From contig NZ_CP055157.1 in assembly GCF_013367775.1 (NCBI RefSeq), positions 1,839,001 through 1,903,000 on the forward strand: DNA of 64,000 nt, given 5' to 3'. Within the stretch, counting starts at the first letter, position 1, and each line of letters begins with the position of its first letter. This document shows, piece by piece, positions 1 to 15,326 of this stretch. This DNA comes from Microbulbifer sp. YPW1. Lineage in GTDB: Bacteria > Pseudomonadota > Gammaproteobacteria > Pseudomonadales > Cellvibrionaceae. The notes beneath the pieces were generated by a model that had not been told where the DNA came from, did not search any database, and was given only the letters and a program-made list of their open reading frames with translations. Both the position numbers and the translations under genes were made by a program.

Positions 1-626
1 GCGCGGTACTCGGTATAGCGGTCGGTTCCACCGAGTTTTTCTTCTACTTGCCAATCGCGATATACCTGTGCAGCACTTTTCGGTTTCGCGTTGCCAGTAA
101 TCGCTTTTGCGATTTGAGGATGGAATCGAGAAATGGATTCCAGACGGCTGTTCGGGATTCGACTGGCATCGCGAAAGTACTTCAGGCAGCGTTTGAAGTC
201 GGTGACGTCTGGGCTGTCGATACCAGCTTGATCGAACACCGTCGCATTATCTGCCGTAAGTAGTACGGCGGCGTGTACATGCGCCTTACGTAGTTCCGTA
301 AGGCCTTTATTACTCTCGCTAATAATGCTTGCCAATACCTTGGCATGGTGGCGTAGTTTTGCGAGGGGGGAATGGAAGGACAGTCGTCCTTCCGGATACC
401 ATTTTGAGCCATACACATCGATATTGCCCCGCGTGCCTTTAACGTCCACCAGATAGACTGCGTGAGGCGTGAGGATAGCGATGTCGATTTCGAACACCTC
501 TAGCCCCTGCCGCATCTCAAAGTTGTGGAATATCAGCCAGCTCTCCGGGAGATGATCCCGGAGAAAGCCTATGGCTTGGCGTTCAGATTCGTTCGCGGGT
601 TGGCCGATGGGTATGACTTTCGCCAC
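1..626 (-). CDS. NERD-domain protein, N-terminal part (probable NERD-protein kinase), runs off left edge
   Basis: Translation from a GTG at 626 gives about 208 residues that stay open to the window edge. The GTG overlaps the TAG stop of the upstream S-like gene (TAGTG), so translational coupling decides the start. Residues 1-150 fit a NERD domain (nuclease-related fold): an EIDIAI segment near residue 46 and a VDVKG segment near residue 61 supply the acid and D-x-K motif expected of the family. The visible C-terminal part (WQVEEKLGGTDRYTEYR) resembles the linker that precedes the Ser/Thr kinase domain in PglW/MAD6-type NERD-kinases. The kinase itself is outside the window and is inferred. It is the fourth gene of a methyltransferase-specificity operon, so a defence role as nuclease or signalling effector is likely. 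NERD is well supported; the kinase is not directly seen. Confidence 0.8.
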   Translation of the reverse strand, partial: MAKVIPIGQPANESERQAIGFLRDHLPESWLIFHNFEMRQGLEVFEIDIAILTPHAVYLVDVKGTRGNIDVYGSKWYPEGRLSFHSPLAKLRHHAKVLASIISESNKGLTELRKAHVHAAVLLTADNATVFDQAGIDSPDVTDFKRCLKYFRDASRIPNSRLESISRFHPQIAKAITGNAKPKSAAQVYRDWQVEEKLGGTDRYTEYR

Positions 627-2041
627 TAGCTGGCTCCTTCCTCGATTGTACGCTCCACAAGAGCTCGAGCCTCATCTTCTAGCTCGATTGCTTTTTCTCG
701 CGCCCTGTATGCTTCTATAACTAACTCATTGCAGCGCCGACGAACATCCTCAGGAGGGTAGGGAATAGGCAGTGCTGGCAGCATCGTATAATGATGATCC
801 TGAAGCTTACTGCCTACTGAAATAGAGCGAAGCATTCTGAAGGCTGTTTCTGATCGCATGAAGGCAAATAATGCACCTCTTTCTATTAATTCTTCATTTG
901 CCAAGACTCGTAGTATGTGTTCGGAATAAGCATTTTCTAAGGCCTTTCCGGTTGCAAACTCGGATCGGCAATAGAGCTCAGATTCACCAAGAGTTCCCTG
1001 TGCTGCGACCAGAACGCAGCCATCTTCAACAAGCACCCCGTCAGGGACAAAATTTTTCCCGATCCAGCGGCCTTGGGGTCGCAACCAAAATAATTCCTTC
1101 TGCCCTATCAGTCGATAAGCATATTCCGGATCAGCATCAACTCGACTAAAACGAACACCGCGCTTAAGTGTCCCTGGAACACAAAGCTCCCCCAATAGTT
1201 TCCAAGAGCCCTGTTTTATCCGATCGCAAAGTCGATTAAATCGAGGGTTGAAATTTAATGCTCGTAGAGATTTGGACCCCGCCAGTGAGCTAAAACCAAG
1301 GTCGGAGCCCCAGGAATGCCATTCACCTGGAGTGATATCTTCAAGGCCTACAGATTCTAAATAGAGTTGTGTTGCGTCATTTAAATATTTTTGATATTGG
1401 TCCAGTAGTGAGGCAGATCGCTCAATTAATTCATGCGCTTTATCCTCTATGAGATCTCCAAGGCGTGGAACAAGTAAATCACTAAAATGTTCGGGCTCTA
1501 GGTGCGTAATTACTGACCCATATTTGCCAGATAATACAAAGGGCACCCCAAAACGAGTGCACAGATATGCATAGAGATAACCTGACTTGACCTTAACTGG
1601 ATCCGCGACAACCTTTATGATGTCTTCGTTCGACCAGATGCCCGCCATGCTAGAGCGCGCATAGATAGTTCGACCTACACTCCCTGAGCGGGTGATTAAC
1701 GTCATTCCTTCACTAACTTTTTGGTTGATTAGCTTTCTTGATTCAGCTTCCTTTCTACTAATTAAGGGAAGTCGCGTTAAGTCGGCCTGCATCATGAAAG
1801 TTGTCGTCAAAAAAGGCACGCCGTAATTTGCATCTCTTACATAGGTGCGTGTGCTTCTCGGCCCATAGAAAATCCCACCTTCATGCCCTGTCGTTATATC
1901 TGGCAATCTTTCAGTGTCGTGCTTTTTTAGAAGTTCGCGAATTTCAGCTGCACCGGACATGTAGGGAGTACAGTCGAGCCGTCGACCATTCTGCTCTAGC
2001 CAGCTACTTGGAATCGCTTTTACCTGAAACTTTCTACTCAT
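626..2041 (-). CDS. HsdS-like specificity subunit
   Basis: The 471-residue protein has the two-half layout of type I specificity subunits, which bind DNA and direct M subunits to a target site. Each half has an S-type signature. The first half has GSVGRTIYA near residue 120 and an HLEPEHFSDLLVPRL segment near 185. The second has AQGTLGESELY near 345 and a DHHYTMLPALPIP segment near 420. Helical spacers follow each half, around residues 205-225 and at the C-terminus. Its ATG overlaps the stop of the second methyltransferase gene by 4 bp (ATGA), and its stop overlaps the NERD gene start. The length is somewhat above the usual 400 or so residues. It probably specifies a bipartite methylation site for the two upstream M proteins. 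Confidence 0.85.
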   Translation of the reverse strand: MSRKFQVKAIPSSWLEQNGRRLDCTPYMSGAAEIRELLKKHDTERLPDITTGHEGGIFYGPRSTRTYVRDANYGVPFLTTTFMMQADLTRLPLISRKEAESRKLINQKVSEGMTLITRSGSVGRTIYARSSMAGIWSNEDIIKVVADPVKVKSGYLYAYLCTRFGVPFVLSGKYGSVITHLEPEHFSDLLVPRLGDLIEDKAHELIERSASLLDQYQKYLNDATQLYLESVGLEDITPGEWHSWGSDLGFSSLAGSKSLRALNFNPRFNRLCDRIKQGSWKLLGELCVPGTLKRGVRFSRVDADPEYAYRLIGQKELFWLRPQGRWIGKNFVPDGVLVEDGCVLVAAQGTLGESELYCRSEFATGKALENAYSEHILRVLANEELIERGALFAFMRSETAFRMLRSISVGSKLQDHHYTMLPALPIPYPPEDVRRRCNELVIEAYRAREKAIELEDEARALVERTIEEGAS

Positions 2042-4059
2042 GACGAAACCTCGCCGCTTTCACAAAATTGCTTATATTTTTCGGCCACTACGGGCAGTTC
2101 ATCGTGAATACGGCGATTTCGCCTCGTCATCCGGCGAATTCTAACTTCTCCGCCTTCTCGTATTCGCTCGACCACATCCTCATCGAAAACCATCTCTTCG
2201 CCGTCGGGAGCCCGTTGGAATAGTTGGTTTCCGCGAGCATCGAGACCGGCTCGGTCCACTACAGCCATAAAGACCTTGTATTCTGGGTGCTCTGTTTTTA
2301 GTAATTCCTCTGGACTACGACGGCGTAGCAGCAAAAGACTAGGCAATGCAGGCGCCAGGCCATACTCCTTTACGGTCACCTTAAAGGGCTCTAAGGGCAG
2401 ATCAACCGAGGCCAGAACTTCACAATGTCGAAGAATCCACCAGCGGATGTATTCGTCACTGGGGTTGCCTAGAACACCATCAGGCAGAAGAATGCCAACA
2501 CGTCCAGTTCCCGGCTTGACCCAATCGAGCGCGCGCTCGATAAATAAAACTTCTGGGGGCACGCCTGCTGTATTGATCGCCCCGGAGTTAATGTAACCAA
2601 GACCTACTTCCTCTTCTTCCCAAACCTTGCCAAGGTCATACTGGGAAAGAATTGATTCATCAGTAATTACATCCCTTGTTGTAAACCATGGGTTAAGCAT
2701 TACGATATCCATGCTACCCAGGGGGATGGCCGGGCGGGCAGCTTCGATACCATCTAAGTCACCATCGGGAAACGTGCGTGCATCAATGCGGAAAACGCGG
2801 CCTGGGTTGCCCGTGGTGAATAGGAGGTTCATCCGGCTGGTCACGGCCAGAAAAGGGTCTATGTCACACCCCAGGGCATTGCTTGCTGCCCATTCAGCGG
2901 CTTCATTTTGAGCCTGGCGAATCTGTTCGTTGGTGGCCTCTTCAGGTGTTGTACCTATGGCCGCTAGCTTCTTTTTAAAGATGTGTGCGGCGGTAGTGGC
3001 GAGGAAGGTACCTGTACCGCTAGAGCAGTCCATAATGCGATCGCCAGCTTGCGGATCAAGCATTTCCACCGCCATTTCGGCAACGTTCAGCGGTGTAGGG
3101 TAGCGCCCCTCTCGGCCATCCATCACACTGCGGGCGACTGCCCGGAAAGCCTCGGTGCGGAAGCGGGGTTGAGTTTCGCTCAGCGAGTAACGAGCCAGCT
3201 CCATGACGACACGGGCTGTCTCGTGGGGTTCAAGATTTAGGTCCCAGCCACGGGTTAGTAGATTCGGTTGCCAGGACTTAGCTGCGCTAATGGACTCGTC
3301 GATGCGCCGTGCAATGGCCTGTTGGCCTTCTCCAGTAAAAGGTTCATCGCCCTTGGTCCAGAACTTATGCTCTCCGGTCGGGAGTGTCTCATCAAAGATC
3401 TTGGCTAGCATCAGAACTGCTAATTGCTTGAAGGAATCTTTGTGGTCGAGGCCCAAGTTCCGGTTTAGATACTGGTGGCAGCGTTTCAGTGCATCTCCTA
3501 GGTCTTCAGCATCCGCACTAATCTGGATAACACCTCCTGTACGGTCGAGGTCAGCGGTGTCTTCACCAGGAGCCGGCCATACACCTAGAGGCTTGGTGAG
3601 TGTTTCAAACCGCGCGTGCTCAACCTGAATAAGAAACTCTTCTTGGCCGTTAGTCCACATCCCGAGAGTAGCCGCAGGAATATGCTCGAGTAACTCCTTC
3701 AGTGGCTGGAGATCTGTATCCGCCTCGTCAAATGAGCGCAGCTTGTTACGGCTACTTTGGGCTTTACATACAATGACTCGCTGAAGGTTATCATTAGTAT
3801 GTTCTGTGCCGGGACGAAAAATCGCAATATCGACGCGCTTACGCATATGCCCCGGAATACGCGGGTGATAATTGACTTCTATATCACCGCGGTCAAATCC
3901 ATAGCTTTCGATTAGCATTCGCAAAATTTTCTGCGTAAGTCGATTTTTTGGTGAGGCGCTCTCCTTATTCCCAGTCAGAATGTCGACTAGAAAATTATCT
4001 GGGCCGCTCTCTTCGGTGGTTTCCTGTTGCGCCTCGATGGCATCGTTTTGATCGCTCAC
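2038..4059 (-). CDS. Second N6-adenine methyltransferase-like subunit, probably catalytically impaired
   Basis: The 673-residue protein is a paralogue of the gene immediately upstream, with the same architecture: an N-terminal type I R-subunit-like domain (about residues 35-130), a helical region, then a type I M-type methyltransferase domain. Key motifs are altered. The SAM-binding motif near residue 341 reads DCSSGTGTF where the neighbour has DPSCGTGGF, and the catalytic motif IV near residue 456 reads NPWF instead of NPPF. In N6-adenine methyltransferases the second proline position of (N/D)PP(F/Y) is highly conserved, so activity is doubtful and a structural or DNA-binding role in an M-M' heterodimer is plausible. 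The ATG overlaps the upstream stop by 4 bp. The methyltransferase fold is certain; inactivity is inference. Confidence 0.85.
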   Translation of the reverse strand: MSDQNDAIEAQQETTEESGPDNFLVDILTGNKESASPKNRLTQKILRMLIESYGFDRGDIEVNYHPRIPGHMRKRVDIAIFRPGTEHTNDNLQRVIVCKAQSSRNKLRSFDEADTDLQPLKELLEHIPAATLGMWTNGQEEFLIQVEHARFETLTKPLGVWPAPGEDTADLDRTGGVIQISADAEDLGDALKRCHQYLNRNLGLDHKDSFKQLAVLMLAKIFDETLPTGEHKFWTKGDEPFTGEGQQAIARRIDESISAAKSWQPNLLTRGWDLNLEPHETARVVMELARYSLSETQPRFRTEAFRAVARSVMDGREGRYPTPLNVAEMAVEMLDPQAGDRIMDCSSGTGTFLATTAAHIFKKKLAAIGTTPEEATNEQIRQAQNEAAEWAASNALGCDIDPFLAVTSRMNLLFTTGNPGRVFRIDARTFPDGDLDGIEAARPAIPLGSMDIVMLNPWFTTRDVITDESILSQYDLGKVWEEEEVGLGYINSGAINTAGVPPEVLFIERALDWVKPGTGRVGILLPDGVLGNPSDEYIRWWILRHCEVLASVDLPLEPFKVTVKEYGLAPALPSLLLLRRRSPEELLKTEHPEYKVFMAVVDRAGLDARGNQLFQRAPDGEEMVFDEDVVERIREGGEVRIRRMTRRNRRIHDELPVVAEKYKQFCESGEVSS

Positions 4060-6053
4060 CCGTTCTGCTCCTTCAGAAATTCACGGTACTTCCCTGCGAT
4101 AACCGGAAGATCATTGTCTTCAATCTTTTCACTGCGCGTCAGCGTACGTTCCACAAAGCGCCCCCCAATGCGGATACGCTCAATATGCTGCTTTGGCTCA
4201 ACGATTTCCTCGCCGTCGGGTGTACGCTTGTATAGCTTGTTGCCACGGCGGTCGAAGCCAACCTTGTCTGCCACGGCCATAAAGACTGGGTATTCCTCAA
4301 TACCGCCAAGCGCTTCCCGATGCTTTTCTTGCTCATCTTTTCTACGAAGGAACAGCAAGCTGGTCAGGATGTTGACATTGGCCTCGGCAATAAATGACTC
4401 AACTGGCAGATCGACGGATGCCAAGACCTGAGTTTCACGCATTATCCACCAGCGAATGTACTCTGCCGCCGGATTGCCGAGAACACCGTCGGGCAGCACG
4501 ATCCCCAGGCGCCCGGAGCCTGGCTTAAGCCACTTGATACAGCGTTCAATAAAGAGAATCTCTGGAGAAACACTGCTTTTGAGAACACCTGTATTGCGGA
4601 ATCCCCCCTCGCCATCGGACTCCCAGCTATGAGCAAGTTCATATTGCTCCAGGATATGCTTGTCTGTGATCGGGATGTCAGCACCAAATGGGGGGTTGGT
4701 CGCTATGATATCGATGGAGCCAAGCGGTATTTCCTTTTTTGCGGATTCCAGGTCCGCTAGGTGACCCAGCGGGAACTCCAGTGAATTGATGTTGTAAATA
4801 TGACCTCGACCATCGCCCGCCAGCACCATGTTCATTTGCGCAGCACGGATTAAGAAAGGGTCAAAATCCGCGCCGTAAACGTTTGCGCCGGCATACTCTT
4901 TCAAGCGCTCAATATCGTTTAGAAAGCCCGTAGAGCTGTCATCACTTGATTTGGCCTCGTCGCGGAATTTATTGAGCATATGACCGAGCGTGGCAACTAG
5001 AAACCCGCCGGTTCCACAGGAAGGGTCAAGAATCGTCTCTGATTCCTTAGGATCAAGCATTTCAATAACGAGTTTGACAACCCCCCGAGGAGTGAAATAT
5101 TGCCCGCGGTCACCACGTAGATTTACGCCCACCAATTCCTGATAGGCTACGCCTTTAGCATCGACGTCGGTACGAGTGAAGTCATACTTGGCGAGTTCTG
5201 AAACAATAAACGCCAGAGCTCGATCCGAGAGTGTGATTTCTTCATTACCTCGGAATATATTGCTGTACTGCTTTTTTACTTCCGCAAAAAGCTCTTCGAT
5301 ACGCTTGCGAATGGCTTTTCGGCCCTCTGCTTCGAACTGCTCTTTTGGAGCTGCCCAAAAACGGCGTACCCAAGCCTGGCGAAGCTTTCCGCGAAGGTTT
5401 TCGTCATGCATTTTGCAGAATATAAGGTATAAAAACTGCCAAAAAGCAGCATCTTTTGGCATGCCTTCGTTGCCGTGAATAAAATTATGGCAGCGACGGA
5501 ATGTAATTTTGAGCATCTCATTATCGGCAACCCGCGTATAAGCATCCGATATGACTTCCTTGGTGCCGATCGATTCATCCGCTATTGGCCAGTCGCCGAT
5601 TGGGCTGCATTTCGTTTCGAAGCGCTTTTGCTCCTTTTCTAAGAAGAAAAATTCGAGGCCGTTGGTCCAAAGGCCGTATTGAACTGCCTCCACTTCACGC
5701 ATGATGCTCTCGATCTCGTCAAGATCTTTCGCGGCTTGCTCGAAGTCCCGAATGCGAACGGCACTTTTTCCGGCCTTGGGCTCCTGACGGCAGACCACTG
5801 CACGACCTAAATTTTCGATCGTATGCTCTTTGCCATGGTGGAATATGGCTACATCGACCTTCTTTCGGCCGCCGAGCTTATAGTCGAGCGCCATATCCTC
5901 AGGTGAGAACCCATATTCGTGAATGAGCGCTCGGACTATTCGCTGGCGTACCTGCTCTTTCTTCGATTCTTTGATTGGCTTGCCCGATATATAGTCAAGC
6001 GTATAGCCCGCCTGAATTGCATGTTCAACGGGCTTGTTTGGTGTGTTACTCAT
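4056..6053 (-). CDS. N6-adenine DNA methyltransferase (type I M-like, MAD2-like)
   Basis: This 665-residue protein is the first gene of the operon. The N-terminus (about residues 15-120) matches the type I restriction R-protein N-terminal fold, with KKVDVAIFHHG near residue 66. The usual E-x-K of an active nuclease reads VCR instead, so that fold is probably not a nuclease. The methyltransferase domain has an intact motif I (DPSCGTGGF, near residue 341) and motif IV (NPPFGADI, near residue 453). Family knowledge says such enzymes transfer methyl from SAM to adenine N6, guided by an S subunit. Most of the protein aligns by eye with the next gene, so the pair arose by duplication. In context it supplies self-marking methylation for a defence system. 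Confidence 0.88.
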   Translation of the reverse strand: MSNTPNKPVEHAIQAGYTLDYISGKPIKESKKEQVRQRIVRALIHEYGFSPEDMALDYKLGGRKKVDVAIFHHGKEHTIENLGRAVVCRQEPKAGKSAVRIRDFEQAAKDLDEIESIMREVEAVQYGLWTNGLEFFFLEKEQKRFETKCSPIGDWPIADESIGTKEVISDAYTRVADNEMLKITFRRCHNFIHGNEGMPKDAAFWQFLYLIFCKMHDENLRGKLRQAWVRRFWAAPKEQFEAEGRKAIRKRIEELFAEVKKQYSNIFRGNEEITLSDRALAFIVSELAKYDFTRTDVDAKGVAYQELVGVNLRGDRGQYFTPRGVVKLVIEMLDPKESETILDPSCGTGGFLVATLGHMLNKFRDEAKSSDDSSTGFLNDIERLKEYAGANVYGADFDPFLIRAAQMNMVLAGDGRGHIYNINSLEFPLGHLADLESAKKEIPLGSIDIIATNPPFGADIPITDKHILEQYELAHSWESDGEGGFRNTGVLKSSVSPEILFIERCIKWLKPGSGRLGIVLPDGVLGNPAAEYIRWWIMRETQVLASVDLPVESFIAEANVNILTSLLFLRRKDEQEKHREALGGIEEYPVFMAVADKVGFDRRGNKLYKRTPDGEEIVEPKQHIERIRIGGRFVERTLTRSEKIEDNDLPVIAGKYREFLKEQNG

Positions 6054-6405
6054 TAATTATCTCCACGCACCTTGCGGGGCGATTTCATATCTATTTGTTC
6101 TTCAATCTTTTGGGCCGTGAGTATTTACTCCTCGGCTCATCATTCATCAGTCGCGCACTCGGGCTGCAACCTGTAAGAACACGGCTCTTACAGTTGCTCA
6201 ATAGGCGAGTCATCTTGTCGCCATTAATGCTGTCTGAAGTCGCCACACTGTCGGTCAAGAAGTAACCCGTTCGTGTGATATCTGTTCGGCTGGATCGTTC
6301 TCGCGTCACGTTAGCTCAGGATGCCATTGGATACTGTTAGGTACCAGACGATAGCAGAATATTTATGTGTTGCATAACACTAAACACTGAGCTATTGTAA
6401 CTCCT
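6054..6405. promoter_or_regulatory. Divergent control region between methyltransferase operon and XRE regulator
   Basis: The 352 bp contain no convincing gene and must hold the promoters for both directions. Two symmetrical elements stand out. At 6171-6193 a perfect 8-bp inverted repeat (CTGTAAGA / TCTTACAG) is separated by 7 bp. At 6367-6380, 26 bp before the regulator ATG, the near-palindrome GTGTTGCATAACAC has 5-bp arms. The second is placed where a repressor acting on its own gene would bind. Binding by the adjacent XRE protein is inference. Confidence 0.5.
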
Positions 6406-6756
6406 ATGAGTAAATTTGGTGAAACTTTGCGCAGCTTGAGGGTGGCGCAAGACTTGGGATTAAGAGAGGCTGCTGTTAAAGCAGGGATCTCGCCTGCCTA
6501 TTTGAGCAGGATTGAGCGAGGTAAGGAGGGGCCGCCAAGCCCAGAAGTTATCAAGCATTTGGCTCGGGTAATGGCTGCAGACCCCGATGTCCTGTTCCGC
6601 TTGTCCTCTTCAACCGATCCTGAAGTGGTTAGCTACATCAATGAGCAGCCCATATTGATGTCTCTCTTACGCTATATCCAGGACTCCGGGTTCAGCGAGG
6701 CTGAAATTAAAAAATTGCTTAAGTCGGCAGAAAAAATAAAGAAAACTAGTGAGTAG
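6406..6756 (+). CDS. XRE-family helix-turn-helix regulator (MAD1-like)
   Basis: The 116-residue protein has a Cro/CI-type helix-turn-helix at residues 4-60: LRSLRVAQDLGLREAAVKAG, then an ISPAYLSRIERG recognition helix. The typical glycine- and proline-rich turn (KEGPPSPEVIKHLARVM) follows. The last 50 residues are charged and helical (SEAEIKKLLKSAEK) and may dimerise. It is transcribed away from the methyltransferase operon. MADS loci are described with a small HTH protein, so it could be the controller that delays effector expression until the host is methylated. Palindromes in its upstream region are candidate operators. Regulation is inferred from position. Confidence 0.85.
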   Translation: MSKFGETLRSLRVAQDLGLREAAVKAGISPAYLSRIERGKEGPPSPEVIKHLARVMAADPDVLFRLSSSTDPEVVSYINEQPILMSLLRYIQDSGFSEAEIKKLLKSAEKIKKTSE

Positions 6757-6876: not shown

Positions 6877-8766
6877 GTGAGTAATAGTCAGGTCGCCAGG
6901 CACAGAGATTATGTTGAAAAGCTTCTGAAAGAAAATGTATTCGGGCACCAGCGAAGAGCAGCGAAAAATACATTTAGTGCACTGGGTCCTGGCTGTCGAT
7001 CAGTAATTATGGCTGCGGAGATGCAGTCTGGTAAGTCTGGCGTTGCGCTTGCTCTCGCGTGTCTTCAAAGAAATAGTTTGTCTGATAGCGATATCGTTGA
7101 CCAGTCTAAGTTGAGGGACACAATGTATGTCCTGACCATGCCAAACACAGATCTACTGGCTCAGGCGAAAGAAGACCTAAAGCCTTGCATGAATGCTGTA
7201 GTGACCAATTTGGTGCATTTTGAAAATGACCTGGAAAAATATTTCATCCGCCACGATCCGAAGCTGATCATTATTGATGAGTGCCATTATGGATCAGGTG
7301 AAAGCGCGGTACGCTATGAAAAGTTGTTTGAGTATGTGGAGAAGAAAAATAGGGAGTGTTCTATTGTTTTTATTTCCGCAACGCCGCTGAGTGCCCTTTT
7401 GGCCGCGGAAAATGAAGCGGTCCTCAGGAAGGATTTGAATACTAAACTAGTTTTTCATAAAGCAAGTGATGAATACCTTGGTATTACGAAAATGTTAAAC
7501 CAAGGGCAGGTTATTTCTCTAAATGGTAGAAACCGTAATCTCCTAAATAAGTCTCCCGCTAGAGATAAATTTTTATCCCATGTTCGAGACTCAAAAAGCG
7601 AAGGTTGGGCCCTGATTCGCGTGCCTTCAGGGGCTGCGATGGATGCAAAAAAAATGCTCATCAAGGAGGGCTTTGAGGAGGAGAATATTTTTATTCTTGG
7701 CTCTAGCCTTAGCGGCGTTCCTGCAAATGAGCTTATAGACATTGACCAGTTCAAAAATCATTGTCAGCAGGGAATGTTATTTGGAAAGAAGGTCATTGCT
7801 ATTACGGTAGCGGGTGTGCGAGCCGGAATAAATTTTGGCCAGGAAATGAAAGAGAATTTGCTTGCCTCATGGGATAGTACGGTTTCTAGTGTGGCGGCTA
7901 TTGTTCAGGCGAACATCGGGCGTGCATGCGGCTACCATGGAAATAGTAATGCGCTTCATTTTACTAATATGTCTGGGGTTAAGGCGTATGCAAGGATCGT
8001 TGCATTCTTAGAAGAAAATTGTACGACGCATGCTACTGATGACATGGAGGGTCTGAGGGATGAGTTTGAGCGAATTTGTGCAGATAACGATATCCGAGGG
8101 CTCGATGCCGGGGCGCGGATAAATAAAGGCAGGAGTCGGAAGGGCAATAAATCTCTGTCCGAATATAAGGCCTACCACACTGATAGTTACTTAGTGGTTC
8201 CAGCGCGGTTGACTGAAGATTTTGATTATTCGCAGTATACCGATGACCCAGAATACCTTGAGTCCATAAAGGTAGTACGAGATACCCTAATAAGTGGCGG
8301 GCTTATGGTCAAAGGCTCTAGGTCGTTGCCACCCGGAACAAACAGCGTAGCTAACTGGGTAAACGGAGACACTTTCTCGAACCCGGAAAAGGCTATTGCT
8401 GGAGGCCCAGTTTTCGAACGTGTTGGGCGATTTACGACGCAGTTAGATCTTGAACATGACGTTAAGTTTAACGATATCGTGCCCGCTGGTGGCGGCGTTG
8501 ATATTAATGAGCGGTCGATCGCGGTATTCGTGTTCAGTATTTACAATGAGTCGCGTCGGGATGTTGAGAAAAAGGTCATGACTCTTTCTGACGTTCATGA
8601 AGTCTCAGATGCCTACAATGTCGAAAGTGATGACACAGTTCTTGTTCTATTCAAAAAGGGTGAGTTCAGCCAGTCTCTAACTGATGAATTTATTGAAAGT
8701 AAGATCGAAGAAGAAAATAAGAGTAGAATTGTCGAAGAAAGTAAATTTCAGCGAGATTTTTCATAA
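6877..8766 (+). CDS. SF2-type DEAD-like helicase/ATPase of an uncharacterised cassette
   Basis: The 629-residue protein carries recognisable superfamily 2 helicase motifs. There is a Walker A variant (QSGKSG, residues 50-55), a DECH box near 135, an SAT motif (VFISATPL) near 167, and a motif VI-like segment QANIGRACGYHG near 350 that recalls the Z1-type ATPases of some defence genes. The C-terminal 200 residues match nothing I recognise. A GTG start at 6877 follows an AGGGGAAT-type ribosome site. The next gene starts 5 bp after the stop, so the two form one transcription unit. Base composition is visibly AT-richer than the chromosome to the right, consistent with transfer. I infer a nucleic-acid translocase working with the downstream HNH-like protein. 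Confidence 0.75.
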   Translation: MSNSQVARHRDYVEKLLKENVFGHQRRAAKNTFSALGPGCRSVIMAAEMQSGKSGVALALACLQRNSLSDSDIVDQSKLRDTMYVLTMPNTDLLAQAKEDLKPCMNAVVTNLVHFENDLEKYFIRHDPKLIIIDECHYGSGESAVRYEKLFEYVEKKNRECSIVFISATPLSALLAAENEAVLRKDLNTKLVFHKASDEYLGITKMLNQGQVISLNGRNRNLLNKSPARDKFLSHVRDSKSEGWALIRVPSGAAMDAKKMLIKEGFEEENIFILGSSLSGVPANELIDIDQFKNHCQQGMLFGKKVIAITVAGVRAGINFGQEMKENLLASWDSTVSSVAAIVQANIGRACGYHGNSNALHFTNMSGVKAYARIVAFLEENCTTHATDDMEGLRDEFERICADNDIRGLDAGARINKGRSRKGNKSLSEYKAYHTDSYLVVPARLTEDFDYSQYTDDPEYLESIKVVRDTLISGGLMVKGSRSLPPGTNSVANWVNGDTFSNPEKAIAGGPVFERVGRFTTQLDLEHDVKFNDIVPAGGGVDINERSIAVFVFSIYNESRRDVEKKVMTLSDVHEVSDAYNVESDDTVLVLFKKGEFSQSLTDEFIESKIEEENKSRIVEESKFQRDFS

Positions 8767-8771
8767 TATCC

Positions 8772-9566
8772 ATGATTGAGCTGGAGCAGGAAGTATATTC
8801 GAGGATCGTGCCTACTAGTGTTCGAGATGTAGGTAAATGCTATTACTGTGGATGTGAAGCTGAAGCATGTTTCGATGATTTTGCGCCACCGAAGTCTAGC
8901 GTTTCTTTTTACCTAAATTCGGGTGAAAACTGTTCATTTGCTGTAATACCCTCGTGTAAAGAGTGCCATTTTTTTTTGAAGACCTGTAGGGATGGGCTGC
9001 TTGAAGGCAGGAAGTTGTTTGTCAACAGGTGCATAAAGAAAAAATATAGAAAAGCGCTTAATATTTACGAGAGGTGGAGTGAAGAAGAGCTCGAAAATTT
9101 AAGTAGAACATTCTCTGAAAGTGTCAAGGCGGGAATTAGGCTAGGTGAGGAGGCTTATGTGCGCCTTAAATTTCCTGGGTATGAGTACGAGATCGACGGC
9201 ACTGTGTTCCATGCAAGACGTAGGAGTGTCGAATTATTTACCGTTTTCGGAGAAGAATTCGATAATTATAGAAATGCACTTCAATTTGCCGCTCGAACAT
9301 ATCGTATTAATATTAATGTCCTTAAAGAATGGTTGATCGAGCACGGAGCAAACTTCGACGAGGCGATTAATGCTTATTTTCGGCACATAGAGGAAGAAAA
9401 GCTTAGAAAGAAAAAGGATAAACTATGCCGTGAGTTTGCTAAAACCTATAAACAAAATAGCAATTTTGTGAAAGGGGCCTTGGACGCATATATGGATGCC
9501 AATCCATCGCTTTCTATGGAAGAGTGTCTGCAACTTATTTATAAAGAAAGAGTAAAAAAAGCTTAA
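8772..9566 (+). CDS. Divergent HNH-like zinc protein paired with the helicase
   Basis: The 264-residue N-terminus has the skeleton of an HNH/zinc nuclease: C23-x2-C26, then DDFAPPKS (residues 35-42) where classical HNH enzymes have DHxxP, then N53, then SCKECH (residues 61-66). The central histidine of the first HNH position is replaced by aspartate, so this is either a divergent nuclease or a zinc-binding recognition domain. Residues 80-264 are helical, charged and Lys-rich (about 205-225), with no family I know. It starts 5 bp after the helicase stop, shares its AT-rich composition, and is probably its partner. No established named system is claimed. Confidence 0.6.
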   Translation: MIELEQEVYSRIVPTSVRDVGKCYYCGCEAEACFDDFAPPKSSVSFYLNSGENCSFAVIPSCKECHFFLKTCRDGLLEGRKLFVNRCIKKKYRKALNIYERWSEEELENLSRTFSESVKAGIRLGEEAYVRLKFPGYEYEIDGTVFHARRRSVELFTVFGEEFDNYRNALQFAARTYRININVLKEWLIEHGANFDEAINAYFRHIEEEKLRKKKDKLCREFAKTYKQNSNFVKGALDAYMDANPSLSMEECLQLIYKERVKKA

Positions 9567-9734: not shown

Positions 9735-10439
9735 TTATCCACCAAAATCCCCCTGCTCAATCCGCTCTAATAAGGCAATAACTTTTTCTCGCCCGCCGTT
9801 AGTGGGAAGCAGGGCTGCTGGTGGGCACCCAATTGCCGGGACATGAGTTACAAACCAAAGCTTGGCTTTTTCCTCGCTCGAAAAGACCCTTACTGCGAAA
9901 GTCCATACATCAAGCAGCTGGAGAATTTTCTCAGTATTTTTCTCAACCGCGCAATGATGAGATTCGTTATCTGTCTCGGCGGCAGAGAGCCATTCGGTGT
10001 CATCCTGATCAGGAACAAATCTGGTTGCGGGGCTTGCCTTGGTCTGTTTCTCAAAAACCAGATCCTGCACAGAAAGCTGCTGATCAAGGAATCCACGGAC
10101 CATGTACATCCCCAGCATGCCGTGGCGCTCCACAATCTCTATAGCAGTCAGTCCGTCAAAGTGTTTATTTGGTTGTGATACCCATTGATACACCAAGTCT
10201 CTATTCTCGGGAAAAAGTACGCGCAGAGATTTATGGATGCGTAGCAGGGTACTGGCTCGCTCGACCTTGTCACGGTCGACGGCCAAAGATCCCCGGGAGA
10301 GATACTCGTTCGGATCAATGTGGCTCTCACGATCAAGACCGAGCAAGCTTAGCCTCTGGGGAGTGCTCAGCTGCCAATGCTCAAAGAGCTTGAGCAGCAT
10401 CTGACCGATCCGGCTCCTTTCCTTGGGTCCTCCTGTCAT
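9735..10439 (-). CDS. MbcA/ParS/Xre-type antitoxin with two toxin-binding-like domains
   Basis: The 234-residue protein looks like a full MbcA/ParS/Xre-family antitoxin. It has an LLKLFEHWQLS-type N-terminus, a central LLRIHKSLRVLFP segment near residue 66, and a WVSQPNKHFDGLTAIEIV toxin-binding signature near 85-105. A second similar module follows a linker: VFSSEEKAKLWF near residue 190, then PAALLPTNGGREKVIALLERI to the end. Ordinary family members have one copy in 100-150 residues, so this is a doubled or fused form. The ATG overlaps the upstream gene by 4 bp. These antitoxins usually neutralise NAD-consuming RES-domain toxins, but no RES protein is visible beside it. Confidence 0.7.
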   Translation of the reverse strand: MTGGPKERSRIGQMLLKLFEHWQLSTPQRLSLLGLDRESHIDPNEYLSRGSLAVDRDKVERASTLLRIHKSLRVLFPENRDLVYQWVSQPNKHFDGLTAIEIVERHGMLGMYMVRGFLDQQLSVQDLVFEKQTKASPATRFVPDQDDTEWLSAAETDNESHHCAVEKNTEKILQLLDVWTFAVRVFSSEEKAKLWFVTHVPAIGCPPAALLPTNGGREKVIALLERIEQGDFGG

Positions 10440-10801
10440 GAAGCTTCTTCCCCATTCCGCAGTTGCTGATGGTCCGGTTTTGCGCCATCCCTCCTATGCT
10501 CCGGCCAACAAATGGCCTCAGCCAATACCCCTTCTTGGCTCATCCAATCACCTATACACACCCAGGCAAACCAGTCCCCGACTTCAGGAATTGAACAGCC
10601 GCTACTATCAGCTAGCACGACGCAGTATGGTTGATTCTGGAATTTGAACCGGGACATTAGTGACGTATGACCGGGATAAGTCGGGATTCTTTCAAAATCG
10701 TCTATCTGTTGTGGCATCTCAAAAAAGCAGGCTTCCGCTAGCTGGTCATGCCCATTTTTACGTAGGGCGGTACGCAGTGATTGTCGAATTGTGGATAGCA
10801 T
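10436..10801 (-). CDS. Hypothetical protein coupled to the double-domain antitoxin
   Basis: The start at 10801 was chosen because an AGGAG ribosome site lies about 8 bp upstream. It gives 121 residues (MLSTIRQSLRTALRKNG...). An open-frame extension to 10924 looks non-coding. The protein has a basic N-terminal helix, a soluble middle with RFKFQNQPYCVVLADSSG, and a Trp-rich stretch (VGDWFAWVCIGDWMSQEG). I recognise no family. Its stop overlaps the antitoxin start (ATGA), so the pair is co-translated. It could be an unrecognised toxin or an accessory protein; the order (unknown gene first, antitoxin second) is the reverse of mbcAT-like pairs. Confidence 0.55.
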   Translation of the reverse strand: MLSTIRQSLRTALRKNGHDQLAEACFFEMPQQIDDFERIPTYPGHTSLMSRFKFQNQPYCVVLADSSGCSIPEVGDWFAWVCIGDWMSQEGVLAEAICWPEHRRDGAKPDHQQLRNGEEAS

Positions 10802-11640
10802 GATCTTTCTCCTGTTCAGAGATTTCACAATATCCCCAGTTGAATAAATGCAACTTCCCCTGTGTCGACGCCTTTGGCTCCTCTCCATAGCATGGCGATA
10901 AGGTCCAATTCTCTGTTGATCCATGAGCTGATGGCTTGCCAGTTAACCACCTTGTCCTCGCCCGGCCAGCTCATGAGTAAACCCAACGTAGGGAGTTGGG
11001 TTACACAATGCCAGCTGCGCAACAGGCAGGTAGACGCGAGCGCCCCAAGTTTGGGGGTCTCTCGGATACGCGTTACACGTCGATTTAAAGGGCTAGAGTA
11101 TCGCCGGACCGGAACAAGCGGTGGTTGCGGCGGCGTGGAGGGCGGTCCCAGAGGCGAGCGCGTGGTAGACAGCAGGAGCTCTGCATCGGAAAGCAGAGGG
11201 GCCTTGGTGTAGCGGGTAAGGGCACTGGATCGCACCAGGCGGACATGCCCGTGAGGTGCAACCCTGTGGCCGAGACCAGCAAGGCAGGCGGCCTGAACGG
11301 ACAGCTGCACAACGTGATTGGGCCACACAGCGGCACGGTTGCCGCGGCGCACGGTCATGGTTTCGACCGTCACTAGCCCCACACGGGTGGTAGTGCCTGA
11401 TCAATCCGGCAATGGAACGGGTACTGTGCACGCAGGACAGGGGTGCGCAAGTTGAAATATAGCCTGCCACACGCAGGTCATCTGGGAGACCAATACGCAC
11501 CAACCACCGGCAAATCACGACGAAAAAAAGGGCAAGAAGGGCTGCGATAGTAAGAAGTTTCTGGGCGCGAGCATAGCGGTTGCCCGCAGAAACTAGCAGG
11601 CACAGTGGGGCATGTCTTAAGGAGCCTCGCTCCGTTTGCC
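10802..11640. other. Region without a confident gene
   Basis: Several frames are open here, but none has good codon texture, a ribosome site and a family match. The most protein-like piece is minus-strand, around 11480-11590: a hydrophobic stretch with LLTIAALLALFFVVICRWLV, possibly the relic of a membrane protein. The minus-strand frame ending at 10825 is also open for 185 codons but rich in Pro/Arg/Ser in the way shadow frames are. I treat the stretch as decayed element DNA. Confidence 0.4.
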
Positions 11641-12359: not shown

Positions 12360-12686
12360 GTTTACCGTGGGTACCGGTAAGAACTTGTCGATGGTGGATG
12401 CAGGCACAGCTGCTGGAATTTACGCTACCAACCTACACAATTAACACCCCTATCTCTTCATCGATAGGGTGTCCCCCCCTCCCCGAAAAAACATCTCTCA
12501 CACCCCACCGAAAAGGCCTCCTTCCCCAATAGGGGCCATGCAAAAAATATCGTGGTGTCCCGAGATAACGCACATGGTTTCATCTGTTCCACGCGGAATG
12601 TGGAACGGGAACGGATAAAGCATTTTGAGTTGACTGAAAAATGTGCAATTTACTATAAATCAAGAGCTTGCCGCTGTTATAGAGTG
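12360..12686. other. Non-coding spacer with two hairpins
   Basis: No gene seen. A GATAGGGTG-type hairpin at about 12446-12472 (imperfect arms) is followed by a C-rich run. A perfect 7-bp inverted repeat (GTTCCAC / GTGGAAC) lies at 12586-12606; its left part, TGTTCCACGCGGAA, is three mismatches from a known chromosomal parS variant. It directly precedes the palindrome array. Confidence 0.35.
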
Positions 12687-13025
12687 TGTCTTTGCAGAGA
12701 AAAAGGGGCAAAAAGATCTGGATTCGTCAGGTGTCTCCCGGGAGACAAAAGGGCAAAAAAATCTAAATTCGTCAGGTGTCTCCCGGGAGACAAAGGGGCA
12801 AAAAATCTGGATTCGTCAGGTGTCTCCCGGGAGACAAAAGGGCAAAAAAATCTAGATTCGTCAGGTGTCTCCCGGGAGACAAAGGGGTAAAAAATCTGGA
12901 TTCGCAGGTGTCTCCGGGGAGACAAAAGGGCAAAAAAATCTGGATTCGTCAGGTGTCTCCCGGGAGACAAAGGGCCTAAAACTCGGGATTCGTCAGGTGT
13001 CTCCGGGGGAAAAAGGGCAAAAATG
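12687..13025. repeat. Array of eight 43-45-bp units each carrying a 16-bp palindrome
   Basis: The palindrome TGTCTCCCGGGAGACA starts at 12732, 12777, 12821, 12866 and 12954. A copy with one central change is at 12909, a degenerate last copy at 12998 and a degenerate first copy at 12687. Periods are 45, 45, 44, 45, 43, 45 and 44 bp. Between palindromes lies a conserved spacer (AAAGGGGCAAAAAATCT type, then GGATTCGTCAGG). Open frames through the array are repeat artefacts. The palindrome shares 12 of 16 positions with the parS consensus TGTTTCACGTGAAACA and the CCCGGG core of the Noc site. Binding by a ParB-like protein is inference; no parB is visible in the window. Confidence 0.85.
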
Positions 13026-13380
13026 ATGGGGATGGACCGCTGATTTCGCTGTCCTTCCATGTGTAAACCCAGCAGATATATAGGTCTTTCATTTTCTGGT
13101 GTGCGAGGAGGCGGCGGGAGTCGACCGTCTTGGGTCTAGTTGCCCGCGGATACGGGTGTATATCACGTGCGAGGGCAAGGGTAAGCCTGAGTGATACGGC
13201 CCGTGTTTACGAGACAAGCAGGAGGTTAGTTGGCAGGGTGTGCTACATGTTTTACGCGACGCCAGAAGCGCGGCTAATTTCAATTTGCGGCGAGGGACGG
13301 GTAATTGGGGGCCTCTCGCAGCAACGCATTTTTCCGGAGTGTGGTATCAATGTTGTTGAAAACCAATAGAGAGGTGAGTC
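13026..13380. other. Spacer upstream of the AlpA-like gene
   Basis: No gene is supported. A 79-codon plus-strand frame (13130-13369) lacks a ribosome site and any recognisable motif. The stretch presumably contains the promoter of the AlpA-like gene. Confidence 0.35.
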
Positions 13381-13586: not shown

Positions 13587-14834
13587 CTAGCTGCTTTTTA
13601 TCGCGACTCGTTTCAGTTCGTCCAGGTAGTCTGCCCATTTTTGCATCATGGTGCGGCGCTCGGGCAGATGTGTGGTGCGATTGTAAGCTCGGCCGAGTGA
13701 GTCGCGCACACGGTGCGCAAGTTGCGCTTCGATGAGCTCTACTCGTTCGTGAAGTGTTTCATCAAGCAATGTGCGTGCACTTGCCCTAAATCCGTGTGCG
13801 CTATGCTCCGGCCTTTTGGTGTGACTTTTTTGGCTATTAATTCGATCTTTGTAGCCGAGTTTTTCTAGGGCACGATTTAGCGACTCTGGATTCGCGTGAT
13901 TTTGGTGGTCGCGTTGACCGCGAAACACGTACGGTAGGTGACCAGTGTAGGGATGAATTGTTCTAAGCAGATCGATTGCCTGCCGTGACAGGGGAACTAG
14001 GTGATCCATTTTATTGCTTTTCCCTTCCTTTTTATCTTGCCAGGGAATAGTCCAAAGAGATTCTTCCCAATTGATATTCTCCCAGCGCATTTTGGCTAGC
14101 TCGACCGGGCGCTGAAAAACCAGTGGTGCGACCTGCAGCATGGTGCGGATGACCATAGACCCTTGGTAATTGTCGATAGCGACAAGTAGGCGTCCGAATT
14201 TAGCCGGTTCCACAATTGCCGCATGATGCTCGACCTGTTTCGGTGGCAGCACGCCCTGAAGTACCGCAGCCGGATTGTGGCGAGCGAGTCCGGATTGAAC
14301 AGCAAACCTCAGAATCTGATTCAAAACTTGCCGTGCGTTATGCGCTGACTCCAATGCACCGCGGCCTGCAATCTCCTTTAGGAGCTGTGCGAGCTCAAAT
14401 GTCTCAATCTCGGTTACCGGGCGTGATCGCAAACGCGGAATAAGATCATTATCCAGTAGTGCCCGCCGCTTTTTCCGCGTCGACTGTGCCCAGGTTGGTT
14501 CACGGAGTTCATACCAGTGCTCGGCCACCTGCTCGAATCGATTATTTTGGATTTGAAATTTCTCCCGATCTTTTTGTTCACGCCAGATGCGGGGATCGAT
14601 CCCATCTGCCAATAGCTCTCGGTAATGGTCACGAACTGCTCGGGCCTTTTTGAGGGAGACAGCGGGGTAGGTGCCGAGGCCGATGTCGCACCTTTGCCCC
14701 TGCCAGACATAGCGGAAGAGCCAGCGTTTGGTGCCACTGGGAAGTACCTCGATCAGCAGGCCCTGCCCATCGCTCTTTCTGTACTTTTTATGCTCTGGCT
14801 TCAGAGACTTCAATTTGGGGTCTGTCAAATGCAT
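13587..14834 (-). CDS. P4-type tyrosine integrase
   Basis: I use the ATG at 14834 (415 residues, MHLTDPKLKSLKPEHKKYRK...), preceded by AGGAG 10 bp upstream. The open frame to 15185 overlaps att and arm-site DNA and lacks family character. Residues 1-95 are the DUF4102 arm-binding domain (DGQGLLIEV, RYVWQGQRCDIGLGTYP). The core domain follows, and the catalytic domain shows RPVELAKMRW (first Arg), HGFRASARTLL (His-x-x-Arg) and the nucleophile in AYNRTTHLPERR. It catalyses site-specific recombination at the neighbouring tRNA-Phe gene. It is transcribed away from the tRNA, as usual for such islands. Confidence 0.92.
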   Translation of the reverse strand: MHLTDPKLKSLKPEHKKYRKSDGQGLLIEVLPSGTKRWLFRYVWQGQRCDIGLGTYPAVSLKKARAVRDHYRELLADGIDPRIWREQKDREKFQIQNNRFEQVAEHWYELREPTWAQSTRKKRRALLDNDLIPRLRSRPVTEIETFELAQLLKEIAGRGALESAHNARQVLNQILRFAVQSGLARHNPAAVLQGVLPPKQVEHHAAIVEPAKFGRLLVAIDNYQGSMVIRTMLQVAPLVFQRPVELAKMRWENINWEESLWTIPWQDKKEGKSNKMDHLVPLSRQAIDLLRTIHPYTGHLPYVFRGQRDHQNHANPESLNRALEKLGYKDRINSQKSHTKRPEHSAHGFRASARTLLDETLHERVELIEAQLAHRVRDSLGRAYNRTTHLPERRTMMQKWADYLDELKRVAIKSS

Positions 14835-15250
14835 GGGGCTTGCTCTCCTATCCTCTCTGGCGTGTAGGTAGTGCCGATGATTGTTGCCTCGCGACAAGGC
14901 GCACCAAGGGTGCTCGTCGTGCAGAGGTACATGCTGGCAAGGAACCGGTAGCGCAGGTGCGGCGAGCGCCGGGGATAGAGGGGGTGCTCGCCTACGGCGT
15001 GATCGGAGGCGGGGTGCTTGAATTTGGAGGGTTGGCGTAGGGTAACAATTCGCGCTAACGCCCATGGTATAAGGGCTGGAGGCCGATTGTGTGGGTACGA
15101 AATTGCGGAAAGGCGCCGTAACCACACCCGTAACCACAGATTGTGGGTATACAGGGAGTGGACGTGAGTCGTTCTGAGAAAACAAAAAAGCCAGCAGACC
15201 TTATGGTTGCTGGCTTTTGAGCGTATCGGAGAAAATCCGATAATGGTAGA
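14835..15250. other. Integrase upstream and attachment region
   Basis: This non-coding stretch between the integrase start and the tRNA-Phe 3' end must contain one element boundary, most likely within or next to the tRNA 3' half. Four short repeats look like candidate integrase arm sites: GTGGGTA at 15091 and 15143, and GTAACCACA at 15118 and 15130, the second motif being close to the inverse of the first. The other att site is outside the window, so the core sequence cannot be fixed here. Confidence 0.5.
15185..15218 (-). terminator. Rho-independent terminator after tRNA-Phe
   Basis: A 7-bp stem (GCCAGCA / TGCTGGC) with an 11-nt loop is followed on the minus strand by six U residues. It lies about 35 bp beyond the tRNA 3' end. 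Confidence 0.75.
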
Positions 15251-15326
15251 TGGTGCCCAGAGGCGGAATCGAACCACCGACACGGGGATTTTCAATCCCC
15301 TGCTCTACCGACTGAGCTATCTGGGC
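15251..15326 (-). tRNA. tRNA-Phe (GAA)
   Basis: The 76-nt gene on the minus strand folds into a standard cloverleaf. It starts GCCCAGATAGCTCAG, the anticodon stem GGGGA/TCCCC encloses the loop TTGAAAA (anticodon GAA), the T-arm contains GGTTCGATTCC, and CCA is encoded at the 3' end. The 3' end faces the integrase, making this the integration target of the island. Confidence 0.97.

Follow-up and report, generated by a model that had tools for sequence, protein, structure and literature searches.

Non-canonical type I methyltransferases of the M1M2S kind, of which PacII is an example, are encoded by two different M-type genes together with one S gene. According to the available text of PMC9613975, the M subunit with an NPPF motif produces N6-methyladenine (m6A), that with an NPPY motif (M2 of PacII) produces N4-methylcytosine (m4C), and PacII is bound by Ocr and ArdA. 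Phosphorothioation is the mark that goes with DndFGH and SspFGH, and PglW of type 2 bacteriophage exclusion (BREX) combines a NERD domain with tandem kinases. Parts resembling each of these stand together in an operon of the methylation-associated defence system (MADS) of Microbulbifer sp. YPW1, described here, which lies at the left end of a stretch of 64,000 nucleotides (positions 1,839,001 to 1,903,000 of NZ_CP055157.1; hereafter the window). The operon encodes two MAD2-family proteins, MAD2a and MAD2b, and the NCBI model names both of them MAD2, so that a second methyltransferase with consistent alterations goes unseen in annotation. No paper on a second methyltransferase in MADS was among the literature matches listed, which did not cover the founding paper (Maestri 2024), where this composition may already be described.

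Operon composition

The genome consists of one contig of 4,578,595 bases, in which the window begins at base 1,839,001, so that the sequence to its left could be read. The order given in the original prediction, a divergent helix-turn-helix (HTH) gene followed by a methyltransferase, its paralogue, an S-like subunit and a NERD protein with overlaps of 1-4 bp, was recovered: the open reading frames (ORFs) are at that place, MAD2a/MAD2b, MAD2b/MAD5 and MAD5/MAD6 overlap by 4, 4 and 1 bp in the ORF list, and the family searches agree. The leftward extension that the prediction had called for revealed the rest of MAD6 and then MAD7 and MAD8 in the same direction (Table 1). Six of the seven operon proteins, all except the HTH protein, exceed the curated NCBIfam cut-offs for MADS, and the order recurs across genomes of several phyla, so that the operon is beyond chance; PADLOC matches of its proteins include mad2, mad5, mad6, mad7 and mad8. 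The locus is thus firmly a MADS anti-phage operon of variant composition, as the original prediction had supposed; it is apparently intact and is cut by the left edge of the window. It is equally firmly a subtype without MAD1, MAD3 and MAD4 and not the eight-gene form. Searches with the MAD1-MAD8 and PglW models, also proposed beforehand, matched MAD2 twice and MAD5 to MAD8; MAD1, MAD3 and MAD4 gave no match in the operon, and the PglW cut-off was not reached.

MAD2, MAD5, MAD6, MAD7 and MAD8 are common to this operon and other MADS, in the order of loci with MAD3-MAD4. The operon differs by its additional MAD2-family protein with an NPWF motif, by the divergent XRE-type regulator and by the lack of MAD1, MAD3 and MAD4; the latter two are not in the operon (the genome elsewhere was not searched for either), and MAD2b stands in their place, in line with the expectation that the second methyltransferase occupies the position of ATPase-type genes. 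As in PacII, two different M-type genes and one S gene are encoded together and one M protein carries NPPF; the second carries NPW[F/Y] instead of the NPPY of M2, an HSDR_N_2 domain is added at the N-terminus of both MAD2 proteins, and family scans found no HsdR among the seven operon proteins and four further left-flank proteins beyond MAD8. The type I R gene that had not been visible in the window is therefore also missing from the left-flank proteins scanned, as is PglZ. No match to pglZ or brxC was obtained among the proteins scanned, which comprise part of the flanking ORFs. With no such gene among these proteins, BREX and a type I system with HsdR were set aside as identities of the locus. 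MAD6 shares NERD and tandem kinases with PglW, although its score with the PglW model (218.6 bits) is far below the cut-off of 990.

Sequence and predicted structure of MAD2b

MAD2b is 38% identical to MAD2a, and the two differ consistently in motif IV. NPPF is present in all 48 MAD2a rows of the motif table, which represent 46 distinct loci (L068 = L036 and L070 = L064 were fetched twice; rows below 550 aa or 150 bits were left out, namely the cut copies of L019, L031, L059 and L062 and the divergent protein of L060). NPW[F/Y] is present in 144/144 MAD2b rows, 143 with F and one with Y; these are 24 loci, with the broken MAD2b of L041 left out, and the top 120 proteins among 475 database matches, close relatives that may overlap with the loci. 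The GxG of the S-adenosylmethionine (SAM) loop is retained in MAD2b. A comparison of 39 MAD2a rows of MADS order with 145 MAD2b rows yielded 62 alignment columns that are at least 95% fixed to differing residues, changes in motifs X, I and IV being among them. In the 23 rows with both proteins the conservation of MAD2b comes close to that of MAD2a, slightly lower by a paired count, and MAD2b therefore seems to be under selection; the impression that it is the more conserved of the two came from an uneven sample and was abandoned after the paired count. The MAD2b rows form one group on a long branch in a 72-row tree, which was built by a quick method and carries a flag for long branches. Judged by its sequence, MAD2b is an old paralogue of MAD2 whose catalytic site has been remodelled. 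A recent duplication is rejected on the basis of this tree, with the warning that a second long branch joins that of MAD2b.

The AlphaFold model of MAD2b (predicted local distance difference test, pLDDT, 87.4) has an HsdM-type fold and matches M subunits of type I enzymes. Among its matches are chain 7vru_B, which we judge to be PacII M2 from the chain length and the numbering in the available text of PMC9613975, and the type IIB enzyme BsaXI, over most of the length with a large root-mean-square deviation. The N-terminal HSDR_N_2 domain is found in both MAD2 proteins. What we take to be the usual nuclease glutamate of this domain family seems to be replaced by cysteine in them. Plasmid and phage collections contained 16 and 3 records, respectively, matching MAD2b at E ≤1e-20, all below 60% identity, and only two PHROGs matches were obtained, both of unknown function.

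The exchange slot between mad2 and mad5

Two short MAD7 patterns were run against a collection with one genome per species and gave 372 stretches and 52 confirmed loci; the MAD7 query alignment consisted mostly of close relatives of the MAD7 of the window, so the shares given here are no estimate of prevalence. The interval between mad2 and mad5 is visible in 44 of the 52 loci and cut off or unclear in eight. It holds MAD2b in 24, MAD3-MAD4 in seven, a Fic protein in two (L029, L049), another AAA protein in one (L050) and nothing in ten, six of which have a rearranged, MADS-like order. The composition first suspected to be a new subtype is thus not unique: it is shared by 24 of the 44 loci of this sample, which leans towards relatives of the query. 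By record title, MAD2b hosts belong to Pseudomonadota, Thermodesulfobacteriota, Acidobacteriota, Verrucomicrobiota, Gemmatimonadota and Chloroflexota, with a broken copy in Bacillota. MAD2b is in three pieces in L041 and accompanied by an opposite-strand gene in L019; in L031 (1315-2442) a gene with a weak Peptidase_M78 (IrrE-like) match is inserted beside it. MAD3 and MAD4 were confirmed by NCBIfam in L043 and L069 and assigned by BLAST similarity elsewhere, the MAD4 of L036 being read separately. That MAD3-MAD4 is a split MAD2b, as the agreeing summed lengths might suggest, was ruled out: MAD3 is an AAA_21 ATPase and MAD4 a separate family.

On a tree of MAD7 (49 rows, six slot states) the slot changed state 11 times, with a possible minimum of five and a mean of 21.6 after shuffling. 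Twelve slots without intact MAD2b and the gap of L019 were searched for remnants with the MAD2b of L016 (L053, L054, L058 and the MADS-like loci were left out). Three of the twelve slots were positive, with E-values that refer to this tiny set: the empty slot of L028 (3e-6), L029 with Fic (1e-19) and L043 beside MAD3-MAD4 (6e-13). These remnants suggest that MAD2b was probably present first in the three loci and was later displaced or decayed, and MAD2b seems to be swapped in and out of the slot. Slot and remnants together hint at how MADS divides into core and interchangeable parts.

The MADS-like order F-G-MAD2-MAD5-H occurs in L061, L064-L067 and L076, where the SspF-like part of MAD6 stands alone as a separate SspF/DndF-like protein of about 600 aa without NERD and kinases. 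An opposite-strand protein resembling the MAD6 kinases adjoins one of these loci (L066:4506-7667).

The MAD6-MAD7-MAD8 module

MAD6 is composed of a NERD domain, a pseudokinase, a kinase and an SspF/DndF-like ATPase. Its C-terminal 625 residues match SspF (1.5e-30), MAD7 matches SspG (4.6e-9) and MAD8, weakly, SspH/DndH (SspH 5.8e-6); the NCBIfam DptF model, which has a cut-off of 50, gives only 16.8 bits. In contrast to DndFGH and SspFGH, the marking would here be performed by methyltransferases and an S subunit and not by phosphorothioation. Rows of MAD6 shorter than 1200 aa and of MAD8 shorter than 1500 aa were left out of the residue counts. E46, D48 and K63 of NERD are kept in 44/44 MAD6 rows, as are K538, D632 and D649 of the second kinase, while the first kinase lacks the catalytic Asp (Asn in 41 of 44 rows, Ala in two, Asp in one). 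The candidate PD-(D/E)xK-like residues D1135, E1154 and K1156 of MAD8 are each present in 47/48 rows and the HerA Walker Lys in 48/48. The MAD8 C-terminus is modelled (pLDDT 77.9) with a HerA-like structure that matches the DndH C-domain; the match list spans the HerA part only, so that the nuclease assignment derives from the residues. Searches by sequence among solved structures gave nothing useful for MAD7 and the MAD6 C-terminus.

The fusion of NERD, pseudokinase, kinase and DndF has already been published (PMC10853773, and again PMC12839542, in the passages available). Its tie to MADS and methyltransferases, added here, was not seen in those passages, and HsdM and HsdS do not occur in the available text of PMC10853773; Maestri 2024 may make the same connection.

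Mechanistic models of self-marking and defence

We consider it somewhat better than an even chance (a probability of about 0.55) that MAD2a and MAD2b act on one MAD5 as an asymmetric self-marker of the M1M2S type, that DndFGH-like MAD6-MAD7-MAD8 destroys unmarked DNA and that the MAD2b slot is exchangeable. MAD5 would recognise an asymmetric site and hold one MAD2a and one MAD2b, as in M1M2S type I methyltransferases. MAD2a, with its NPPF motif, would write m6A as the self mark, while MAD2b, in which the fold and the GxG are kept and the catalytic pocket is rebuilt, most likely does not write this mark and would either leave its own strand unmarked or sense the state of the site. Unmarked DNA would then activate the MAD6-MAD7-MAD8 complex with its HerA translocase and PD-(D/E)xK-like nuclease, which the kinase and NERD domains of MAD6 may regulate or back up. 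Loss of MAD2b would possibly be tolerable since MAD2a could pair with itself, and the heterodimer model could explain in this way why the loss is harmless. Of all this, the composition, the conserved residues, the varied slots with their remnants and the homologies are observed, and the complex, its marking and its triggering are inferred. With MAD2b, the question of how MADS tells self from foreign DNA turns into a test of named residues.

Several observations weigh against this proposal. MAD2b is dispensable over evolution, as the remnants in L028, L029 and L043 and the other slots without it indicate, and an obligate partnership of MAD2a and MAD2b is therefore unlikely. Once MAD2a and MAD7 are corrected for, the identity of MAD2b does not track that of MAD5 (partial r 0.03 over 24 loci, a value reached in 730 of 2000 permutations), and MAD2b is less similar than MAD2a when the window is compared with its nearest relative (90.5% against 97.1% identity). 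Against the PacII chains the MAD2b model reaches moderate Foldseek TM-scores (0.41 with the query length as reference), and a methyltransferase with such an unusual motif IV may nevertheless be active. When 398 genomes were drawn evenly from the phylum, eight had a MAD7 match and four exceeded the cut-off, of which the genome of the window was the only one with MAD2b, two others having MAD3-MAD4 and one a MADS-like locus.

We regard it as doubtful that MAD2b is a methyltransferase turned reader, with the MAD2a half writing m6A on one strand, the rebuilt half sensing the other and signalling to MAD6-MAD7-MAD8, and the slot serving as a swap site for readers or guards (MAD2b, MAD3-MAD4, Fic). 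A guard or accessory position, in which MAD2b would be a decoy or watcher of an M-S core that works alone, for example against DNA-mimicking anti-restriction proteins, and MAD3-MAD4, Fic and others would be alternative guards, is likewise rather unlikely. Nevertheless, what the slot holds varies between constant neighbouring genes (11 changes on the tree), and some slots are empty; the lack of MAD2b-MAD5 covariation and the repeated loss of MAD2b keep this idea alive. Moreover, the MAD3 of L043 matches AriA (4e-28), HEC-01A and AbiLi models, and AriA belongs to the phage anti-restriction-induced system (PARIS), a sensor of anti-restriction proteins. The binding of PacII by Ocr and ArdA mentioned above points in the same direction, but the whole M-subunit fold and the strict conservation of MAD2b exceed the apparent need of a decoy, and no trigger is known.

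Turning to catalysis, MAD2b could be active and yield another product, for instance m4C or a methyl group on a different adenine, in which case the strands would carry two different marks. The retained GxG and the pairing of m6A with m4C in M1M2S enzymes (PMC9613975, available text) agree with this, yet we consider it improbable: NPW[F/Y] matches neither NPPF nor NPPY, motifs X and I are altered too, and none of the 15 literature matches listed, of 137, contains NPWF. The original prediction tentatively placed the effector function elsewhere, in the NERD-kinase of a new subtype. The conserved NERD residues and the second kinase would suit such a role, but the protein is an ordinary MAD6, alike in every slot type of MADS gene order, and MAD8, just outside the window, supplies a conserved nuclease motif and the HerA motor. 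NERD-kinase as the sole effector was dropped once the left flank had been read, and we see very little likelihood that it is even the main one.

Genomic setting and regulator

Table 1 Features of the operon and its surroundings. Positions refer to the window unless prefixed; L003 is the fetched stretch covering its left flank and G000 its genome.
Feature	Position	Strand	Remarks
XRE-type HTH regulator	6406..6756	+	116 aa; divergent from operon; Pfam HTH_31 56.3 bits
Operator-like site	6367..6385	-	GTTTAGTGTTATGCAACAC, palindrome GTGTT-ATGC-AACAC; aligned at same place in 9/9 upstream regions compared
MAD2 (MAD2a), N6-adenine-type methyltransferase	4056..6053	-	665 aa; motif NPPF; NCBIfam MAD2 1013.6 bits, cut-off 720
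MAD2b, methyltransferase paralogue	2038..4059	-	673 aa; motif IV NPWF; NCBIfam MAD2 799.1 bits, cut-off 720
MAD5, specificity (S) subunit	626..2041	-	471 aa; NCBIfam MAD5 534.3 bits, cut-off 400
MAD6 (5' part in window)	1..626, onward to L003:14454	-	1390 aa; NCBIfam MAD6 815.6, cut-off 460
MAD7, SspG-like	L003:12782-14476 (left of window)	-	564 aa; NCBIfam MAD7 677.9, cut-off 410
MAD8, DndH-like ATPase	L003:7335-12785 (left of window)	-	1816 aa; NCBIfam MAD8 237.4, cut-off 175
Tyrosine integrase, right end of element	13587..15185	-	Pfam; beside tRNA-Phe
tRNA-Phe	15251-15326		
Right copy of tRNA-Phe 3'-end repeat	15251..15275 (genome 1,854,251)	+	
Left repeat copy	G000:C1:1817625		1 mismatch in 25; 36.6 kb left

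The operon is carried on a predicted 36.6-kb integrative element at tRNA-Phe (G000:C1:1817625-1854275). Among 48 genomes of the genus, MAD2 exceeded the cut-off only in that of the window and in its nearest relative (G414), both with the MAD2a-MAD2b pair and the same NPPF/NPW motifs. Between these two, MAD2a, MAD6, MAD7, MAD8 and the HTH protein are 95-98% identical and MAD5 only 58%, which indicates replacement or rapid divergence of the S subunit, the behaviour to be expected from a specificity gene.

G414 also encodes a homologue of the XRE regulator. In 11 further distinct loci, whose slots are empty or hold MAD2b, MAD3-MAD4 or Fic, a homologue lies upstream of MAD2a on the other strand; in five of these 11 it is seen only as an edge fragment of 19-44 residues. 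The operator-like site is exact in the window and its sole match there at ≤3 mismatches (0.31 expected by chance at 3 mismatches); the exact palindromic form occurs in 18 of 86 fetched loci, some of them overlapping copies. An Rfam search near the promoter gave nothing. The XRE protein did not match PADLOC mad1, and the MAD1 of L028 or L044 had no match in window 5991-6420 at E ≤10. The mad1 model is unspecific, with matches in 14/14 control genomes and 32 in the genome of the window at E ≤10, none at the operon. Of 56 loci searched, 21 have a full-length small MAD1 before mad2, confirmed as PADLOC mad1 in the two that were scanned, and another two show weak partial matches at other places. 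Many of the remaining loci are cut short or also without MAD1; since L017, L027 and L049, with upstream sequence, also do without it, the window is not exceptional in lacking it.

Beside the operon (window 6877-9566) lie genes for a DEAD/ResIII helicase-like protein and a 264-aa CxxC-bearing protein (weak phrog_36777), which have no PADLOC match and are possibly another defence pair. They are followed by an Xre/MbcA/ParS-type antitoxin-like gene and a 162-aa ORF (9735-10924), and the stretch at 12552-13060 reads in the ORF list as repeated peptide units on both strands. A second place with a NERD domain is found in the genome at G000:C1:3670283 (L002).

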